From the NCBI GenBank assembly GCA_019637075.1, contig JAHBWI010000001.1, forward strand, positions 62,001 through 126,000: DNA of 64,000 nt. Direction: 5' to 3'. Position 1 is the first letter of the stretch, and each line of letters opens with the position of its first letter. A model generated the notes under the pieces. That model did no database searches, was not told where the DNA came from, and saw only the letters and a list, made by a program, of their open reading frames with translations. The stretch is from Nitrospiraceae bacterium. Its GTDB lineage: Bacteria > Nitrospirota > Nitrospiria > Nitrospirales > Nitrospiraceae. Of the stretch, positions 12,753 through 23,984 are shown one piece after another. The translations under genes and the position numbers were made by a program.

Positions 12753-13083
12753 CACCAGCGTAGCTGCGCAGAATAAGAGCCTATGGCGTATAGCTTATGG
12801 CCTATGGCACGAACGGGCTGCAGCTATCAGCGATCAGCTGTGAGTGCCGCCGCGGGTATCGCATCTTGTCTCACGTCTGACGTTTCCCATCCCCTCTGGC
12901 TATATGCTCTAGGCCATTAGCCCAGCGGCGTATCTCGTCTCTCGTGAAGCGTTTCTCGTCCCGCGTCTTCCGTTTCACGTTTAGCGTCCTGCGGCTCGGA
13001 CACCTTTCTTTTCCCGGTTCCATTTCGGTAAGCTTTCTCCACGTGCCAGGCAGCACATTCTTGATGGGAAAGGGGACATACGC
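12753..13083. repeat. Intergenic region with degenerate repeat words
   Basis: This 331-bp gap has no convincing gene. At 12778-12812 it holds three variants of the word CCTATGGC/GTATAGC, and at 12927-12989 runs such as GCGTATCTCGT, AAGCGTTTCTCGT and CCGTTTCACGTTT. The same words recur at 24051-24150, 25541-25646, 43222-43268, 45837-45902 and 46694-46760. Their origin is unknown. Confidence 0.5.
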
Positions 13084-13476
13084 ATGAAAACGGGATGGGT
13101 GGCGATCGGATTATGTTTCTGCCTCGCCCTGGCCGGGTGTGGAGGCAAGCATGCGGAGATCAAGGAAGATCGGCTGACGGTCGGAAAAGTACAAGGCGAA
13201 ATCAAGCTCGGGATGGCGGCGTCTCAGGTTGCCGAACTGCTCGGCAGCCCCAATATCGTCACGACCGACGAGAAGCGCCGCGAGGTCTGGATTTACGACA
13301 AGGTCTCTACGGATCGGGTCGATACCTCCAGCTCCGCCTTCGGCGGCATCATCATCCTCGGCGCCAATTCGAGCGATCACTCGAGCTCCAGCAGGCAGCG
13401 GACGCTCACGATCATCATCAAGTACGACGAGGAGAAGAAGGTCCGCGACTTTGCCTACAACTCCACCCAGTTCTAA
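13084..13476 (+). CDS. BamE/SmpA-like lipoprotein
   Basis: A 130-residue lipoprotein. The signal peptide ends in the lipobox LAGC (Cys about residue 19), consistent with outer- or inner-membrane anchoring. After it come VGKVQGEIKLGMAASQVAEL and LGSPNIVTTDEKRREVWIY, the typical SmpA/OmlA (BamE-like) pattern G-M-x-x-x-x-V-x-x-x-L-G-x-P, then an internal Ser-rich loop and a final strand ending AYNSTQF. BamE is an accessory of the outer-membrane beta-barrel assembly complex, but many SmpA-fold lipoproteins have other roles, so the gene is not named. GGAAAGGGG precedes ATG 13084. Confidence 0.75.
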   Translation: MKTGWVAIGLCFCLALAGCGGKHAEIKEDRLTVGKVQGEIKLGMAASQVAELLGSPNIVTTDEKRREVWIYDKVSTDRVDTSSSAFGGIIILGANSSDHSSSSRQRTLTIIIKYDEEKKVRDFAYNSTQF

Positions 13477-14068
13477 ACAGGCGCGCGCCGGCCGGCAGGC
13501 CGTCGGATTCCTCGGCCTGTCCCTTGTCTGCCTGTCGGCATTGCACGGCTGCGAGACCCCGACGCTGCAACCGGCGGAGTTTTTTCAACTCACGCCGGAA
13601 AGCCAGCAGAACCGGGCCATGCAGATCCGCCTGTACGAAACGAAGAACGAGTCGGAGTTGCTCTCCGCCTCGGCCGCCGTCCTGCAAGACCTCGGGTTCC
13701 AGGTGGAAGAAAGCGTGAAGGACGTCGGTTTCCTGCGCGCGACGAAGGAACGCAGCGCCAGGGAATACGGACAGGACCTGACGCGGTTCTTCACCTGGCT
13801 CATCTCCCTCGGCCACCTGATCATTCCAGTGGACCTCCACCAGCAGATCGCCGCGACCCTGGTCGCTCGGCCGGTCAATGCCGAGGGCACGAAACATGAG
13901 GTGCGCATCCTGTTTTACCGCGTCGTGTGGAAGGGCGACGGCCACGCGGATCGCAATTACATCCCGCCGGGTGAACAAAAGATGGAGATGATCCGCGACC
14001 CGCTGCTCTACCAACAGTTCTTTGCCAAGTTATCCAAAGCCGTGTTTTTGGAAGGATTCACGATTTAA
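13451..14068 (+). CDS. Lipoprotein, first of three tandem paralogues
   Basis: TTG 13451 gives a 205-residue precursor with a basic N-terminus (KQARAGRQ), a hydrophobic stretch (VGFLGLSLVCLSAL) and a lipobox-like HGC; it overlaps the upstream BamE-like gene by 26 nt in another frame. The mature part contains RAMQIRLYETKNESELLSA, then VLQDLGFQVEES, DVGFLRATKE, and near the end DPLLYQQFFAKLSKAVFLE. The same pattern is found in the genes at 14078 and 14834, so the three are paralogues. No function is known for the family. The unusual start is the main uncertainty; no ATG is available that keeps the signal peptide. Confidence 0.72.
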   Translation: MPTTPPSSKQARAGRQAVGFLGLSLVCLSALHGCETPTLQPAEFFQLTPESQQNRAMQIRLYETKNESELLSASAAVLQDLGFQVEESVKDVGFLRATKERSAREYGQDLTRFFTWLISLGHLIIPVDLHQQIAATLVARPVNAEGTKHEVRILFYRVVWKGDGHADRNYIPPGEQKMEMIRDPLLYQQFFAKLSKAVFLEGFTI

Positions 14069-14077
14069 GAGGTTGCG

Positions 14078-14632
14078 GTGAGATTCATGCTGAAAGCAAT
14101 GTCGCGAGGTATCAATCTTTCCAGGAGACTCAGAAAGGCTGACCGGCGAGGCCGCAGCGAACGAAGGGCCGAGGCGTACCCTCTGGAATACGTTGCGGGT
14201 CTGAGCGCAGCGAGAACGACGCTGGCGATCTTTTTCAGTCTCCTGTTGCTGTACGGATGTGTCGGCCCCCAACCCACCCAAGACTTGCTTGCGCCGACCG
14301 ATGCGCAAATGAAGATCCGCAGCCTCCAGACGCGCACATTCGACATCCCGGATCGCCAGGTAGCCATGCGGGGCGTGATCGCCGCGCTGCAGGACTTAGG
14401 CTTCATCATCGAGCGGGCCAACGAGGGGCTGGGACTCGTCACGGCGGCGCGGTTCGCCGAACCTCACTATTACGATGTCTTGGGCGTGACGGTCACGGTG
14501 CGGCCGGAGCCGGAAGGGCGCATGATGGTGCGGGCCAACGCCATCTACAACAACAAGCCGATCGAGGACCCGAAGGTGTATCAGAATTTCTTTGCGACTC
14601 TAGAACGATCGTTGTTCATCACGAAACCCTAG
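14078..14632 (+). CDS. Lipoprotein, second tandem paralogue with repeat-derived N-terminus
   Basis: A 184-residue frame from GTG 14078 (ATG 14087 is an alternative). The mature part is homologous to the flanking lipoproteins: MKIRSLQTRTFDIPD, VIAALQDLGFIIERANEGLG, and DPKVYQNFFATLERSLF. The signal peptide is odd: a 45-residue, Arg-rich leader precedes the hydrophobic TTLAIFFSLLLLYGC lipobox region. Residues from about 16 to 56 are encoded by an inverted-repeat element at 14122-14244, and the FFSLL core comes from that element's right arm. Translation may start further downstream than annotated. Confidence 0.68.
   Translation: MRFMLKAMSRGINLSRRLRKADRRGRSERRAEAYPLEYVAGLSAARTTLAIFFSLLLLYGCVGPQPTQDLLAPTDAQMKIRSLQTRTFDIPDRQVAMRGVIAALQDLGFIIERANEGLGLVTAARFAEPHYYDVLGVTVTVRPEPEGRMMVRANAIYNNKPIEDPKVYQNFFATLERSLFITKP
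14122..14244. repeat. Inverted-repeat element, copy A (inside lipoprotein gene)
   Basis: A 123-bp element whose ends, CAGGAGACTCAGAAAG at 14122-14137 and CTTTTTCAGTCTCCTG at 14229-14244, are complementary at 14 of 16 positions. The interior carries the family core GGCCGCAGCGA, GAGGCGTAC and CTGAGCG..GCGAGAACG, shared with copies at 21173-21298 and, in the opposite orientation, 14634-14756. Confidence 0.7.
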
Positions 14633-14633
14633 T

Positions 14634-14756
14634 AGGATGTTGAAAATGCCCGCCAGCTTTGTTCTCGGCTTGAAGCCATCCTCAACGTACCCCAGAGGGT
14701 ACGCCTGCGGTGGTTTCTCCGCCTGCGGCCTCGCTGACGGCCATTTTGAACATTCT
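14634..14756. repeat. Inverted-repeat element, copy B (reverse orientation)
   Basis: A 123-bp element directly after the stop codon at 14632. The ends AGGATGTTGAAAATG... and ...CATTTTGAACATTCT are complementary with a few mismatches over about 21 nt. The core appears reverse-complemented relative to copies A and C and contains the perfect hairpin CGTACCC-CAGA-GGGTACG at about 14685-14702. Its left half is nearly identical to the fragment at 19689-19732. Confidence 0.7.
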
Positions 14757-14833
14757 CGGGGTTAGCCTGATTCGTCCGAGATGGTGCATCACCTGATAAA
14801 TCGGAAAGAGCTTTAATCAACCTACCAGGCCAC

Positions 14834-15403
14834 ATGATCAGCATAAAATGGACCGTTCTGGCCGTCGCCGGTCTCGCGCTGCTGCTCCAGGGTTGCCCAG
14901 GGCTGTACGAACTGCGGCATCAAAACCAGTGGGACTCGCGCGACCAGATCTGGCGTGCTGAGGAAAGCCAGGTGAAGCTGCGGGCAGCGCAAAGCCGTCT
15001 CTTCGACACGACCGACCGGCGGCGGGTGCTCGAAGGCATCGTCGCCACCATGCAGGATGTCGGATTCATGGTGGAGGTGGTGGACGAGGAACTCGGGTTG
15101 GTCTCAGGCAAGCGCTTCGAGGGGATCGAACGGTCCGACGCCTTTCCCGATCCTTACTATCACCTCTACGACGGCAAGAGCCTCATCGTCTTTACCAAGG
15201 CCTACCATTCGTGGGGGCCGTTCTGGCACCGCAGCGACCTGGTTCGCTTCACCGCCACCGTGCGCCGGCGCAACGAAGGGCAACTCGTCGTTCGCGCCAG
15301 CGCGCAGTATTATCTCCAGGCCGTCGAAGACCCCGTGCCCTATCAGAAATTCTTCCGCTCCCTCGAACAGGCGCTCTTTCTGGAAAGCCAACAGGGAGAG
15401 TGA
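14834..15403 (+). CDS. Lipoprotein, third tandem paralogue
   Basis: A 189-residue lipoprotein with a short, normal signal peptide: basic SIKWT, hydrophobic VLAVAGLALLLQG and lipobox QGC (Cys about residue 21). The mature domain repeats the paralogue pattern: VKLRAAQSRLFDTTDRR, VLEGIVATMQDVGFMVEV, DEELGLVSGKR, and VPYQKFFRSLEQALFLE at the end. Compared with the other two it has an insertion around residues 105-130 (YHLYDGKSLIVFTKAYHSW). It follows element B, so it may have its own promoter or be read through from upstream. Function unknown. Confidence 0.78.
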   Translation: MISIKWTVLAVAGLALLLQGCPGLYELRHQNQWDSRDQIWRAEESQVKLRAAQSRLFDTTDRRRVLEGIVATMQDVGFMVEVVDEELGLVSGKRFEGIERSDAFPDPYYHLYDGKSLIVFTKAYHSWGPFWHRSDLVRFTATVRRRNEGQLVVRASAQYYLQAVEDPVPYQKFFRSLEQALFLESQQGE

Positions 15404-15485
15404 GCGGGGAGAGGACGCCAGACACTCTTCTCCTGTCCCGCATTTTCCCTCTCATGCCTCACGTCTCCCGTCCCACGCTCCTCAC

Positions 15486-16661
15486 TCACCGGCTTGCGCG
15501 TAACCCTCCCGACTGAAAGTGATTCGGCAACAGCATAATGCAGTTCGGGTTGAAGCCCGCCGCCTTCAACGTGTCGATGCTGCCAATGACCTTGCCTCCC
15601 TCTTGCAGATCGATCACGGTCACCGAGCCGTCGCTCATGCCGTCCAAATTCAACAGGCTGTTCTGTACGAACAGGTAGCGCTCGTCCGGCGAGAGCACCG
15701 TATGGTGGGCGCCTGCGGCGGCAGGGATGGCTTGCAGAAATTTCGGCTTCGCCGGGTCGCTGTTATCGTAAATGTTCACGAAGCCCGGCTTGGCGGTCGT
15801 GACGTAGAGGCGGTCCGCCTTGGCGTTGTACATCATCTCCAGCGGCACGCCCTGTTGCCTGGCCGCATAATCGTCCACCTGTTGAAAGGAAAACGTCTTC
15901 GTCGACGCGTTCCAAACACCGGTCCAGAGACTGGCCTCCATCATGTTCGTCACGTGCACCACCGGCGGCGTCGAGTTGGGCGCGAACATCACTTCTACCG
16001 GCGCAGACTTGGCGGTCCCCGGCTTGGCATTGACCTGATGCGTCGACAGGACGCGGCCGCTGCTGGCCTCGAGCACCGTGATCGAATCGCCGGCTTCGGA
16101 CATGTCCGGCTTCACCGTACTCGTGATCAACACACGATCGATCCCATTGTGGATGGCAATGCCGTGCGGATACAGAACCGAGGCTGCTCCGCCTTCCGGC
16201 GTCCTGATCGTCTTGATCGGTTGGTCCGCCACCGCATCGCCCATAATCACCGAACTCGACCCCATGCAGGTCAGGAACCAGGTGCGATTGTCTTCCGACA
16301 CGACCAGGTCTTCGCCGACCATGCAATCAGGCACATCGATTGCGCGCAGGCGATAGGGGAATCTCGTCAGGTCCACGACATGCAGCAGGCTCTTCCCCAA
16401 AGCCGTGATGTAGGCCTTGGAGCGGTCGCGATTGAAGAAGATATGGTGCGCGACCAAGTCGGAAGGCAACGGAATCTCCATCAGGATCTTGCCGAAATCC
16501 GGCGACGCGGGATCGATCTCCATGATCGCAATCCCTTCGCGGCGCTGGGCCTGATTGGGCTTGCTCTCAAAATTGAGCAACGCCAGCAACTCGGCGGATG
16601 CAGGCGCAAGCCACGCGAGCGTCATCATTACGGTCAGGACACACAGGCGGGTAGATTTCAT
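15486..16661 (-). CDS. Secreted YncE-like beta-propeller protein
   Basis: A 391-residue protein with a cleavable Sec signal peptide (VLTVMMTLAWLAPASA, cleavage near residue 23). The mature part consists of repeated strands of the type D-R-S-K-A-Y-I-T-A-L and D-E-R-Y-L-F-V-Q-N-S with conserved His-rich spots (VAHHIFF, YPHGIAIH, GAHHTVLSPD), typical of periplasmic seven-bladed YVTN/YncE beta-propellers. AAGGAGG just upstream of ATG 16661 is a strong ribosome binding site. It is a single gene, convergent with the lipoprotein array. The ligand is unknown; similar proteins are often annotated only as YncE family. Confidence 0.78.
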   Translation of the reverse strand: MKSTRLCVLTVMMTLAWLAPASAELLALLNFESKPNQAQRREGIAIMEIDPASPDFGKILMEIPLPSDLVAHHIFFNRDRSKAYITALGKSLLHVVDLTRFPYRLRAIDVPDCMVGEDLVVSEDNRTWFLTCMGSSSVIMGDAVADQPIKTIRTPEGGAASVLYPHGIAIHNGIDRVLITSTVKPDMSEAGDSITVLEASSGRVLSTHQVNAKPGTAKSAPVEVMFAPNSTPPVVHVTNMMEASLWTGVWNASTKTFSFQQVDDYAARQQGVPLEMMYNAKADRLYVTTAKPGFVNIYDNSDPAKPKFLQAIPAAAGAHHTVLSPDERYLFVQNSLLNLDGMSDGSVTVIDLQEGGKVIGSIDTLKAAGFNPNCIMLLPNHFQSGGLRASR

Positions 16662-16911
16662 GGCGGCCTCCTTGGCAAGAAAACGACCGGGTGAGCAACA
16701 AGCAGGGTACTCCTCTAATGGCAGCTACGCAATATGGAGAGTTCTCAAATGCTGGTATTCCGGCGCGCGCTGAGATCAATGCGCTCTTCCTTCCGACCTC
16801 ACCCGCGCACGAGCCGTTCTCTCCGTGAGTGACTGAACCAAGTCGTTCGTCTGACAGAGCAAGGGGTTTTCTGGACATCTCCTCAAGGCGCGGGTAGATT
16901 GGGCTGACGCC

Positions 16912-17529
16912 ATGCCGACGAAGCATTTCTCCATGATCCGCGAGTTCCACCTGGCCGATGTGCTCACCTTAGGCAACGCGGCCTGCGGCGTCGGCGCCGT
17001 GCTCTGCGCCATGCTCTATATGGAGAGCGGTCAGCCGAGCCATTTCCTCTTGGCAGCGGCCTTCACGCCCGGCGCGCTCTTCTTCGATTGGTTCGACGGG
17101 CGGGTTGCGCGTTGGCGGCACGAACATTCGGCGCTGGGGCGTGAGCTGGATTCGCTGGCGGACGTCATCTCGTTCGGCGTCGCTCCGGCCGTCCTCGGGT
17201 TTGCGGCGGGCCTGCGAGGCTGGTGGGATGGGCTTGCGCTGATCTATTTCGTCTGCTGCGGCGTGAGCCGGCTGGCCCGCTACAACGTCACGGCTGAATC
17301 GCTCTCAGCGGGCGGCGAAAAGGTCGCCTATTTCGAAGGGACGCCGATCCCGACGACGTTTCTGCTCACAGGGCTTCTGGCGCTCGCGGCCTGGCAAGGC
17401 CGGGTGGGGCAGGACATCTGGTGGGGGACATGGCACATCGGACCAGGCACCCTCCATCCGCTCTCGCTGCTATTCATTCTCTCCGGCAGTTTGATGATCA
17501 GTAAGACGCTCCGCATCCCGAAACTCTAA
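16912..17529 (+). CDS. pssA: CDP-diacylglycerol--serine O-phosphatidyltransferase
   Basis: A 205-residue integral membrane enzyme that makes phosphatidylserine, the precursor of phosphatidylethanolamine. The CDP-alcohol phosphotransferase signature D-x2-D-G-x2-A-R-x8-G-x3-D-x3-D is complete (DWFDGRVARW, then GRELDSLAD at about residues 60-85). ADVLTLGNAACG near the N-terminus and SRLARYNV followed by FEGTPIPTT are typical of the type II (Bacillus-like) PssA subclass. Five or six hydrophobic segments are visible. It is convergent with lplA, overlapping it by 4 nt at the 3' ends. ATG 16933 is an alternative start. Confidence 0.9.
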   Translation: MPTKHFSMIREFHLADVLTLGNAACGVGAVLCAMLYMESGQPSHFLLAAAFTPGALFFDWFDGRVARWRHEHSALGRELDSLADVISFGVAPAVLGFAAGLRGWWDGLALIYFVCCGVSRLARYNVTAESLSAGGEKVAYFEGTPIPTTFLLTGLLALAAWQGRVGQDIWWGTWHIGPGTLHPLSLLFILSGSLMISKTLRIPKL

Positions 17530-18242
17530 TCCTTGCTGCTTCGTTCCCGCAACGCCTTCATGCAATCCTGCAGTCGAGACTCGGGCCAATGCTCCAGCCT
17601 GCGGTCCGCTTCCCATGCCTTGGCCATCGCGTCCTTGATGTCCTTCGGCGAGACCGCGATCATCCGCACAAATCCCTCATGCGGGCGCTGCGCCCGATAG
17701 TCCGGTTGGCGAACAGGCACTTTCAGATAGCGCGCGATGAGGTCCGCGGTCATGCCATGGAGGATCGTGCCGTGAAAGAGCATCGCCCGACGCTTGCGAT
17801 GTTGCGCGTTGCCAGAGATCTTCCTGCCGCCGATGGCCAAGTCGCTGATGCCCTGGAACGTCACGCCCGGTTCCCAACGCCTGAGCACCTCAGCCATCTT
17901 CTCGAGAATGAACGCATTGGTGCGGCGAATGTCCGCCAGATCCGGATGCCAGTCGAGCGGCAGCAGCAACGCATAGGACAGGCAGCCCGGCCCCTGCAAC
18001 ACCGTTCCGCCGCCGCTTGCCCGCCGCAACAACGGCACGCCGTCATCCGCACAGGCTTTGACATGGACATCGTCGTGGATGCGGCAACTCGCGCCGAGCA
18101 CGACGAACGGCCGCTCGCTTTCCCAGAACCGTAAGATGGGCTCGCCGCCCTGTTCGTCCAGTTCCTCGAGCAGCGCTTCGTCGAGTGCGAGATTCTCGAT
18201 CGGGGTGGGGAGCGTGAGGTCGAGCAGCCGCAAGACCGGCAC
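17526..18242 (-). CDS. lplA: Lipoate--protein ligase A family protein
   Basis: A 238-residue protein of the biotin/lipoate A/B ligase family. It shows the substrate-binding RRASGGGTVLQGPG motif (about residues 72-85) and the catalytic-lysine motif GGRKISGNAQ (about residue 137), followed by HGTILHGM. It probably attaches lipoate to the E2 subunit encoded in the same operon, aceF. The GTG start at 18242 immediately follows the lpdA stop, so the two are translationally coupled. The length fits LplA forms lacking the C-terminal accessory domain; an octanoyltransferase (LipM-like) role cannot be excluded. Confidence 0.85.
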   Translation of the reverse strand: MPVLRLLDLTLPTPIENLALDEALLEELDEQGGEPILRFWESERPFVVLGASCRIHDDVHVKACADDGVPLLRRASGGGTVLQGPGCLSYALLLPLDWHPDLADIRRTNAFILEKMAEVLRRWEPGVTFQGISDLAIGGRKISGNAQHRKRRAMLFHGTILHGMTADLIARYLKVPVRQPDYRAQRPHEGFVRMIAVSPKDIKDAMAKAWEADRRLEHWPESRLQDCMKALRERSSKD

Positions 18243-19682
18243 CTATGCAGAAGGAGAGGCCGGTCGTTTCTGCTGGTAGACGTGGGTGGCCTGGCCCAGG
18301 AACTGTTCCGCCGACTCCATCACCGTCTCGCTCAGGGTCGGGTGGGGATGGATCGAGGCGGCGAGGTCTTCCGCGACCGCGCCCATTTCGATCGCCAGCA
18401 CGCCTTCCGCAATCAGCTCGCCCGCGCCGACGCCGCAGACGCCCATGCTCAACACGCGGCCAGACTCCTTGTCGAGGATCAGCTTCGTGAGGCCGTCGTT
18501 GCGTCCCACCGTCGTGGCCCGGCCGGAGGCGGCCCAAGGAAAGCGCATGACCGTGACCTCCTGCGTCGAAGCCTTCGCCGCCTCCTCGGTCAATCCGCAC
18601 CAGGCGATCTCAGGATCGGTGAAAATCACGGCGGGGATCACCGCATCAAACTCAGCCTGGCGACCGGCAATGACGCGGGCCGCCACGATCCCTTCGTGCG
18701 AGGCCTTGTGGGCCAGCATCGGTTCGCCGACCACGTCGCCGATGGCGAAGATCGTCGGTTCGGCCGTCCGCAGCTGCCGGTCCACTTGGATGAACCCCTT
18801 GTCGGACAGGGCGACTTTGGTCTGATCGAGTCCCAACTGCTCGCTGTTCGGCTTGCGACCGACGGCGACCAACACCCGATCGAACAGTTCGGTCTGGCTA
18901 CCCTCTGCCCCTTTGATCGTCGCGGCGACAGCATCCTTGCGCGCCTCGAGCTTCTCAACGGTCGTCTCAAGCCGGATCGCCGAGAACTTCTTCTGCAGGC
19001 GAAGCTGCAGAGGCCGCACGAGATCCTGATCCGCTCCGTTCAGGATTCGAGGCAGCGCTTCAACCAGCGTCACATCCGATCCCAAGGCCTGATAGACGGT
19101 CCCGAGTTCGAGCCCGATGTAACCGCCGCCCACCACGAGCAGGCGACGAGGCACCTCCGGCAAGTCGAGGGCGCCGGTCGAATCCATCACGCGGGAATCA
19201 TCCAGCCTGAGAGAGGTAGGGGAGGCGGGCCTGGAACCGGTCGCCACGATCACATGGCCGAAGGTCAGCTCGCGGGTGGAGTCGGCGGCCCCGGAAGCCT
19301 CCGTCAGGATCAATGTCGTGGCATTCTTGAACCGAGCCGTGGCCTGGATCACCTCGACCTTGCGAGCCCCGGCCAGCGTCCGCACGCCCTTGGTCAGCTT
19401 GTCGATGATCGTCTGCTTGCGGCGTCGCAGAACCTCAAGATCCAGGCGAGGTTTGTCGAACGTCAGGCCCCAGCTCGCACCCTCTTGTGCGTCGGTAATC
19501 AATCGCGCCGCATGCAGCAACGCCTTCGACGGGATGCAGCCGCGCAGCAGACAGACCCCGCCCAGTTGCGGCTCCCGATCGATCAAGCAGGTGCGCAGGC
19601 CGAGATCCGCCGCTTCGAACGCAGCCGCATAGCCACCAGGCCCCGCACCGATCACCGCCACGTCGAAGTGTGAGTTGGACAT
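18243..19682 (-). CDS. lpdA: Dihydrolipoyl dehydrogenase (E3)
   Basis: A 479-residue flavoprotein that reoxidises dihydrolipoamide using NAD+, component E3 of the pyruvate dehydrogenase complex. The FAD site is VIGAGPGGYAAA at residues 10-21; the redox disulfide is CLLRGC (Cys44 and Cys49, then PSK); the NAD site is VVGGGYIGLELG; and the C-terminal active-site base is in HPHPTLSE. The disulfide spacing is canonical, although CLLRGC differs from the common CLNVGC. It is third in aceE-aceF-lpdA-lplA on the minus strand, 51 nt downstream of aceF; that gap contains a repeat fragment. Confidence 0.96.
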   Translation of the reverse strand: MSNSHFDVAVIGAGPGGYAAAFEAADLGLRTCLIDREPQLGGVCLLRGCIPSKALLHAARLITDAQEGASWGLTFDKPRLDLEVLRRRKQTIIDKLTKGVRTLAGARKVEVIQATARFKNATTLILTEASGAADSTRELTFGHVIVATGSRPASPTSLRLDDSRVMDSTGALDLPEVPRRLLVVGGGYIGLELGTVYQALGSDVTLVEALPRILNGADQDLVRPLQLRLQKKFSAIRLETTVEKLEARKDAVAATIKGAEGSQTELFDRVLVAVGRKPNSEQLGLDQTKVALSDKGFIQVDRQLRTAEPTIFAIGDVVGEPMLAHKASHEGIVAARVIAGRQAEFDAVIPAVIFTDPEIAWCGLTEEAAKASTQEVTVMRFPWAASGRATTVGRNDGLTKLILDKESGRVLSMGVCGVGAGELIAEGVLAIEMGAVAEDLAASIHPHPTLSETVMESAEQFLGQATHVYQQKRPASPSA

Positions 19683-19688
19683 TGTGAT

Positions 19689-19732
19689 GGCTTCAAGCCG
19701 AGAACAAAGCTGACGGGCATTTTCAATATTCT
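19689..19732. repeat. Fragment of the inverted-repeat element (copy D)
   Basis: A 44-bp fragment filling the gap between aceF and lpdA. It begins GGCTTCAAGCCGAGAACAAA and ends CATTTTCAATATTCT, matching the reverse complement of the left half of copy B (14634-14677) with only a few differences. The other half of the element is absent, so this is a truncated copy. Confidence 0.65.
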
Positions 19733-19733
19733 G

Positions 19734-21131
19734 CTACAAGCCCAGAAACATCCCTTCAAAGTCTTCCAATACCTTCACGATTTCGTTGGTGAAACGCGCG
19801 CCGTCGGCGCCGTCGATCAGCCGGTGGTCGTAGGCCACGCAGAGCGGCAGCATCAGGCGGGGAACGAACTGACCGTCGCGATAGACCGGCATCCGGCGGC
19901 CCTTGCCGACGCCCAAGATACCCACTTGCGGCGGCAGGATGATCGGGGTGAAGGGCCCGGCCCCGAGCCCGCCCATGTTGCTCACGGTGAAGGTCGCGCC
20001 GCGCAGCTCTTCGATTTTGATCTCGCGTTTGCGCGTCCGCTCCGCGAGGTCGGCCAGCTCCAACGAAATCTGCACGAGGTCTTTGCGATCCACGTCATGG
20101 ACCACCGGAACGATGAGCCCCGCCGGCGTCTCCACCGCCACCCCGATGTTGTAGTACTCCTTGAAGATGATCTCGCCGCTCGCCAGGTCGATCGTGGCGT
20201 TGAACTGCGGATAGAGCTTCAGCGCGTGGGTGACCGCCTTGAGGAACAGGCTCGTGAGCGTCAGCGTCGCGCCTTTCTCCTTGAACTTGGGCGCATAACG
20301 CTTGTGCAACCCCTGCAGGTCGGTGATGTCTGCGTCCTGAAACTGATGTACGTGCGGGATCGTGGTCCAGGCCTGCGTGACGGTCGCGGCGATCTTGCGC
20401 CGTAGCGACGGGATCGGCTCGCGCCGCTCGTTGCCGTACATCGTCGCGTAGACGTTCGCCCCCTTGGCCTGACCGTCCTGGCCCGAAGGCACGCTGCGTC
20501 TCGTCCGCTCGCGCACGAAAGTCTTCACGTCCTCGGCCGTGATCCTGCCTCCCGCCTCCGAGCCCTTCACCTGCCGCAGGTCTACACCAAGCTCACGCGC
20601 CAACCGACGCACGGAAGGAGGGGCGGCGATACCGGAGCCGGCCGACGCAGTCTCATCTTTCTGTTCCGCCTGAGGCGGATCCTCATCCTGTGCTGCCGCA
20701 TCCGCTTTCGAGTCTGGGTCAGCCACCTTCTGCTGCGTTGGTTTGGCGGGCGATTGTGCCTTCTGCCTGTCCGCCTTCGATTGCACCACTTCGACTTCAG
20801 GCGATGGTTGAGCTTCCGGCGCGGGAGCCCTTTCAGTTCGCGGGGCCTGCTGTTTCGGAGCTTCCTGCTTTGGAGCCGATTGTTTCTGAGCCGCCTGGCC
20901 GTCGCCTTCCAAATCGACGAGTGCCTGGCCTACCTTCAAATGGTCGCCCTGTTTCACCAACACCTTCGCCACCTTCCCGGCCGAAGGGGAGGGAACCGCC
21001 ACCGTCGCCTTGTCGGTCTCGATTTCGATCAAGGCCTGGCCGGACGTGACCTGGTCACCTTCCTTGACCAGGACCTGCACCACGTCGCCGCCTTCAACTC
21101 CCTCGGCCAGAAATGGAAGCTCGACCTTCAT
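19734..21131 (-). CDS. aceF: Pyruvate dehydrogenase E2, dihydrolipoamide acetyltransferase
   Basis: A 465-residue E2 subunit. One lipoyl domain occupies residues 1-75, with the lipoylated lysine in EIETDKATVAVPS (Lys41). An Ala/Pro/Gln/Glu-rich linker covers about 78-175. A peripheral subunit-binding domain follows (SVRRLARELGVDLRQV ... GRITAEDVKTFV), and the C-terminal catalytic domain carries the active-site motif DHRLIDGADG. It transfers acetyl from lipoate to CoA and forms the complex core. The gap to the upstream aceE is 165 bp and holds a full inverted-repeat element. ATG 21131 is clear. Confidence 0.95.
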   Translation of the reverse strand: MKVELPFLAEGVEGGDVVQVLVKEGDQVTSGQALIEIETDKATVAVPSPSAGKVAKVLVKQGDHLKVGQALVDLEGDGQAAQKQSAPKQEAPKQQAPRTERAPAPEAQPSPEVEVVQSKADRQKAQSPAKPTQQKVADPDSKADAAAQDEDPPQAEQKDETASAGSGIAAPPSVRRLARELGVDLRQVKGSEAGGRITAEDVKTFVRERTRRSVPSGQDGQAKGANVYATMYGNERREPIPSLRRKIAATVTQAWTTIPHVHQFQDADITDLQGLHKRYAPKFKEKGATLTLTSLFLKAVTHALKLYPQFNATIDLASGEIIFKEYYNIGVAVETPAGLIVPVVHDVDRKDLVQISLELADLAERTRKREIKIEELRGATFTVSNMGGLGAGPFTPIILPPQVGILGVGKGRRMPVYRDGQFVPRLMLPLCVAYDHRLIDGADGARFTNEIVKVLEDFEGMFLGL

Positions 21132-21172
21132 TACTTATCGTTCCCCGATTTCACTGAACCTCTCCTGATCCT

Positions 21173-21296
21173 AGCAGGCTGTTCAGGCTGGTATGTAGCA
21201 AGGCCGCAGCGAGCGAGGCGGCGAGGCGTACTTTTCTCGTACGTTGAGCCTCTGAGCGACGCGAGAACGCAGCTAGAGACCAGGCTGGACAGCCTG

Positions 21297-21298
<2 letters not shown>
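21173..21298. repeat. Inverted-repeat element, copy C (between aceE and aceF)
   Basis: A 126-bp element. The left arm AGCAGGCTGTTCAGGCTGG (21173-21191) and right arm CCAGGCTGGACAGCCTGCT (21280-21298) are complementary at 17 of 19 positions. The core contains GGCCGCAGCGAGCGAGG, the hairpin CGTAC-TTTTCTC-GTACG and CTGAGCGACGCGAGAACG. Its right end overlaps the aceE stop codon by 2 bp. In the aceE-aceF transcript it could fold into a long hairpin that affects the ratio of the two products. Confidence 0.75.

Positions 21299-23984
<2,686 letters not shown>

Follow-up and report, generated by a model that had tools for sequence, protein, structure and literature searches.

The question raised by this locus is whether a hairpin repeat that entered the signal-peptide part of a lipoprotein gene has been taken over as coding sequence. 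The gene concerned is the middle one of a tandem trio in a Nitrospiraceae genome of 4.06 Mb in 22 contigs, and it lies in the window (the whole stretch of 64,000 nt that was analysed). The sequence-only reading of this window had proposed that a repeat element inserted into the 5' end of the gene and was recruited as coding sequence, creating the signal peptide. The features on which the discussion is based are given in Table 1.

The middle lipoprotein had been regarded as the second of three paralogues, and BLASTP was in agreement with this (E 2e-8 and 1e-29). Its closest protein matches were found in Nitrospira genomes. The two other paralogues had been credited with ordinary short signal peptides, which holds for paralogue 3 (ordinary, 20 residues) and for the hydrophobic core and lipobox of paralogue 1, both of ordinary type, but not for the start of paralogue 1, where the nearest in-frame start is TTG 13451. 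No ATG was present ahead of the lipobox of this paralogue (13451-13480), and TTG 13451, the sole plausible in-frame start, overlaps the 3' end of the preceding gene. Pfam and NCBIfam scans gave no family match for the lipoproteins, and the only signal was a weak resemblance to BamE, under the Pfam cut-off, in the gene that precedes the trio (13084-13476). The fold predicted for the mature part of paralogue 2 is confident, with most blocks at about 87-95 pLDDT, and its best PDB matches by Foldseek were BamC (E 3e-6, 14% identity, with a single domain in our protein). From this model the trio may be BamC-like accessory lipoproteins, with a resemblance in fold only. The region 13084-15403, in which a BamE-like gene precedes three lipoprotein genes of a single family, may hold a Nitrospira-type set of accessory lipoproteins for outer-membrane assembly.

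Table 1. Features of the lipoprotein trio and of the repeat copies, in window positions.
Feature	Position	Strand	Basis or remark
Paralogue 1, lipoprotein, lipobox LHGC	13451-14068	+	Sequence, BLASTP
GAGG, Shine-Dalgarno-like, 5 nt before GTG 14078	14069-14072	+	
Paralogue 2, lipoprotein gene with repeat-derived leader, 184 aa, GTG start	14078-14632	+	
Repeat copy A, full-length model match, open in frame (SRRLRKADRRGRSERRAEAYPLEYVAGLSAARTTLAIFFSLLL)	14118-14248 (start and end approximate)	+	
Left terminal arm of copy A	14122-14137	+	
Right terminal arm of copy A	14230-14245	+	FFSLL of the hydrophobic core encoded from 14231
Lipobox L-Y-G-C of paralogue 2, ancestral, retained	14249-14260	+	Same as in orthologues
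Mature domain of paralogue 2, strongly conserved, predicted helix-grip fold	14261-14632	+	Closest solved structures are BamC domains
Repeat copy B, flush with the TAG stop (14630-14632) of paralogue 2	14630-14761	-	
Paralogue 3, lipoprotein, ordinary signal peptide MISIKWTVLAVAGLALLLQGC	14834-15403	+	
Repeat copy C, inner sequence similar to copy A, right end flush with the stop of a minus-strand gene	21170-21299	+	

The reading frame of paralogue 2 opens with the N-terminal sequence MRFMLKAMSRGINLSRRLRKADRRGRSERRAEAYPLEYVAGLSAARTTLAIFFSLLLLYGC, and 60 residues precede the lipobox Cys. This leader contains 13 Arg and Lys residues versus 4 Asp and Glu, with a net charge of +9, and SERRAEAYPLEYV is a stretch of it as predicted. 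Its positive n-region and the lipobox Cys that follows a hydrophobic core are features of lipoprotein signal peptides processed by signal peptidase II, while bacterial signal peptides seldom have an n-region as long as its 46 residues. Export by the Tat pathway, considered from the motif SRRLRK, was rejected, given that the hydrophobic core does not come after the RR pair.

Most of this leader is covered by repeat copy A. The covariance model R1 matched it over its full length (model positions 1-132, 114.8 bits, E 8.9e-26; G000:C1:76118-76248, that is, window 14118-14248). It must be noted that copy A was among the 15 copies from which R1 was built, and that the blastn matches of copy A at 18 other places of its own genome are independent of the model. 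The two terminal arms form an inverted repeat, 88% complementary, so that the terminal inverted repeats expected of a MITE are present. The codons of FFSLL (14231-14245) fall within the right arm. Both claims made from the letters alone, namely that copy A encodes the Arg-rich leader and that FFSLL belongs to the right arm of the element, were thus borne out. The boundaries of copy A are decayed, and arms and flanks are too decayed to call a target duplication. A small indel must presumably have accompanied the insertion, since a plain insertion of 124 or 128 nt would break the frame.

The closest copy found (L232) is 82% identical to copy A. The arms of copy A share the changes GGAGACT and AGTCTCC, as two compensating pair changes present in no other sampled copy, and no closer source copy with a GGAGACT terminus was found among the sampled copies. 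This looks like arm-to-arm correction of the palindrome or like an unsampled subfamily. Elsewhere in the genome, a repeat-like patch that lacks the rest of the element contains 31 nt matching the middle part of copy A exactly (L195, G000:C9:67842-67872).

The repeat is a structured and widespread family. Compensatory changes were seen in 22 of the 34 stem pairs of R1, which matched about 50 copies in the source genome and had copies in every one of 41 sampled Nitrospiraceae genomes; outside this family, but within the phylum, matches were mostly few and weak. An Rfam scan of positions 13000-22000 gave no family, no description of this repeat in Nitrospira was found in the literature searched, and the family is apparently undescribed so far. 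Its position relative to genes was analyzed in 94 copies from the source and other Nitrospiraceae genomes (loci L137-L166, L177-L194, L167-L176 and L196-L233). In 53 of them, a long ORF (at least 120 aa) had its stop codon exactly at the right end of the element, versus 0.5% at shifted positions; for the left end this was so in only one, versus 0.9% at shifted positions, the orientation being fixed. All three kinds of stop codon occurred at these flush ends, with TAG the most often. Stop-flush copies may serve as an RNA hairpin at the 3' end or at the termination site, or they may reflect insertion at stop codons. Copy A is flush with no stop codon, this feature being common to about half of the copies and not a defining one.

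With respect to genes, the copies other than A look intergenic, and A alone was found within a conserved coding frame. A Pfam scan of the ORFs that span other copies, in the source genome and its relatives, revealed no conserved domain across the element. Other candidates for copies inside conserved genes were rejected, as the ThiI and TPR domains lie wholly on one side and those copies are therefore upstream of the real start. In the thiI genes of two Nitrospiraceae genomes (L145 and L197), a copy is located directly upstream of the start codon, and this position of the repeat may be conserved.

The state of the locus before the insertion can be read in its relatives. The distance from the stop codon of the upstream paralogue to the lipobox Cys was 62-104 nt (median 75) in 91 related loci, in which some genomes are counted twice, and it is 189 nt here. 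One homologue set alone comprises 80 separate loci, and the search with the repeat model found no copy in the stop-to-Cys gap of these 80. Since the related loci have a short gap and no element, the short leader is ancestral and the long one derived; on the basis of these gaps, the long leader of paralogue 2 is a derived insertion, and it was found in one genome only. The sequence-only reading had suggested looking in related genomes for this paralogue without the insertion and had taken distant orthologues with the same leader but no repeat similarity as evidence to the contrary. The former were found in these loci, and the latter did not appear, all measured leaders being short.

The old signal peptide is recognizable on both sides of copy A. 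Orthologues have GAGG-N5-ATG (for instance GAGGTTATAATG in L064), the same spacing is kept in the window, and GTG 14078 is the positional homologue of their ATG. Across the leader region L064 reads GAGGTTATAATGAAACGACGAGTCGCATGG...GTGTACGGGTGC and the window reads GAGGTTGCGGTGAGATTC...CTGTACGGATGT. This comparison indicates that GAGG-N5-start and the L-Y-G-C lipobox are old, and that the element lies between them. In addition, one conserved gene cluster is common to both flanks.

Between these two old parts there is hardly any other place at which translation could begin. In the in-frame codons from after ATG 14099 to the Cys there is neither ATG nor GTG, and the sole TTG (14246) lies so near the Cys, at four codons' distance, that no signal peptide would be left. 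Given that no usable standard start exists past the element, export of paralogue 2 as a lipoprotein would require that copy A be translated, presumably from GTG 14078. A start downstream of the element, which would have spoken against recruitment of the repeat, is limited to this TTG as far as can be judged from the sequence. Together with the polarity of the change and the open frame, this supports the proposal that an element inserted at the 5' end was recruited as coding sequence.

What the repeat contributes can be seen in the hydropathy of the leader. Its best 10-residue window (LAIFFSLLLL) has a Kyte-Doolittle value of 3.01, and only 0.78 is reached without the element-derived residues; therefore, the repeat provides most of the hydrophobic core. 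The idea that the signal peptide was created from the repeat must be modified in this regard: the charged segment and most of the core do come from it, but an existing peptide was split, and its start region and lipobox were retained. In the same register, the right arm of other copies very often has a hydrophobic end (for example RTKLAAFFSILI, RTTLADFFSILL and RTKLAGFFSILI). Over the last 9 codons copy A has a mean of 2.92, among the highest of 88 copies, versus 1.23 (s.d. 1.05) for the others. Judging from these translations, the right arm of the repeat carries a latent segment that resembles a hydrophobic core.

Two acidic residues that stand just before the core in other copies are missing in copy A. 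In the 61 other copies with the motif, E occupies the first site in 60 and D or E the second in 54, and none of the 61 lacks both. The loss of both acidic residues together with the higher hydrophobicity fits selection for a better signal peptide, in what is one case with no close sister. Compared with L232, 15 of the 17 codon differences in the leader are nonsynonymous, and no purifying selection was seen on the leader. We consider it possible, although doubtful, that selection acting after the insertion shaped the leader into a functional signal peptide of unusual length, and that the family, with a latent signal-peptide-like segment (Arg-Thr and then LAxFFSILL) in the right arm, makes such captures easier than chance.

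An insertion of this kind could also have disabled export, leaving a recent decaying pseudogene or a cytoplasmic protein with a frame that is open by luck. An open frame alone is weak evidence against this, since 53 of the 88 copies have no stop codon in the register of copy A, and the insertion is present in no relative, so that it may be of recent date. The mature domain, nevertheless, keeps all of the 53 columns in which conservation among 82 orthologues reaches 95% or more, and its dN/dS versus the twelve nearest orthologues is about 0.04-0.085, at synonymous distances above 1 and with two pairs saturated. By these measures it is under strong purifying selection, in the sense of a long-term constraint; a very recent insertion, even in a protein that is now unexported, would look the same. 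Besides, the start signal and the lipobox are intact, the core is strong, and both of its conserved acidic neighbours are gone. In attention to all these points, we regard the loss of export as unlikely.

More improbable is a start inside the element at CTG 14203, from which an ordinary signal peptide of about 19 residues (MSAARTTLAIFFSLLLLYGC) would be made while the Arg-rich part stayed untranslated. The sequence from this codon onward is that of a textbook lipoprotein signal peptide, and REPs that annotation places at an N-terminus often lie beyond the limits of the real gene (PMC3733652). Nonetheless, CTG starts are rare, a good Shine-Dalgarno sequence is absent before this one, and the ancestral GAGG-N5-GTG remains upstream in the same frame; even from CTG 14203, the hydrophobic core would still be derived from the element. 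An assembly or polishing artefact at the repeat might be suspected in a genome of 22 contigs and with a multicopy element, and it is the least credible of these alternatives: the repeat is short, no copy found exceeds about 82% identity to copy A, a level at which reads would be told apart, and both flanks belong to the same conserved cluster.

The explanation that we consider probable is that the repeat inserted in the signal-peptide part of the middle lipoprotein gene, that it is read through, and that the product is exported with the mature lipoprotein unchanged. On the lineage of the source organism, a hairpin repeat of ~130 bp, present throughout the Nitrospiraceae, entered this part of the gene. 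The ancestral ribosome-binding site, the start position and the first ~14 codons still precede the element, which is followed by the ancestral lipobox and the mature domain. Ribosomes would read through the element, which is open in this register. The long n-region rich in Arg would come from its left part, and most of the lost hydrophobic core would be replaced by its right arm (LAIFFSLL), which runs on into the old LLYGC. After export, for which Sec is the probable route, and lipidation, signal peptidase II would cleave the protein ahead of the Cys; the 60-residue leader would be discarded and the mature lipoprotein would be as before. The insertion and its polarity, the open frame, the kept start and lipobox, the hydrophobic core and the constraint on the mature domain can be read from the sequence itself; initiation at GTG 14078, export, lipidation and cleavage, as well as fitness and any tuning of the leader, are what we infer from these features.

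This is a clean and polarised case in which a repeat would have become coding sequence at the most tolerant place of a protein, a leader that is discarded. Given that about 80 related loci present the prior state, the event is directly testable, by comparing the short leader and the repeat-bearing one in front of one and the same mature protein. The case also suggests that a family-wide repeat of nitrite-oxidising and comammox bacteria can shape proteins.

Several known systems must be considered in this context. The closest is the RU-2 repeat of Yersinia, which contributes to the signal peptide predicted for YPO1552 (Delihas, 2007; PMC2759123). In both cases a small mobile palindromic repeat lies in frame at the N-terminus and makes part of a signal peptide, and homologues elsewhere have unrelated signal sequences. 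The repeat and the phylum are different here, the signal is that of a lipoprotein, as handled by signal peptidase II, about 80 orthologues fix the ancestral state, and the old start and lipobox are recognizable on both sides.

Rickettsia palindromic elements (RPE) are palindromic repeats of small size that lie within genes (Ogata et al., 2000, via PMC10969869). Our case is similar in that a hairpin repeat of 100-150 bp is in frame in a conserved gene and is kept open, with orthologues here that have no insertion. It differs in that RPE are often in genes, while only one copy of our repeat, copy A, is in a conserved frame, and in that what is affected here is a discarded N-terminal leader.

The GTAG/CGTC REP elements are mostly downstream of genes, their ends often supply TAG stop codons, and some are within ORFs (Di Nocera et al., 2013; PMC3733652). 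Our family shares with them the palindromic structure, the location mostly downstream of genes and the ends at stop codons. REPs, in contrast, are of 20-40 bp and linked to RAYT/Y1_Tnp, while the element here is of ~130 bp and the source genome has no match to the Y1_Tnp transposase (PF01797), for which 5 of the 14 control genomes were positive. The caution of the same work, that N-terminal REPs may be outside the real gene, is answered here by the lipobox downstream of the element and by the lack of a downstream start. In Escherichia coli, ribosome stalling can be caused by REPs situated shortly after a stop codon (PMC12306157), which by analogy is a lead for what the stop-flush copies might do. 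Repeat-derived signal peptides and in-frame palindromic elements have therefore been proposed before, and what is new in this locus is the unusually clear ancestry of the leader.
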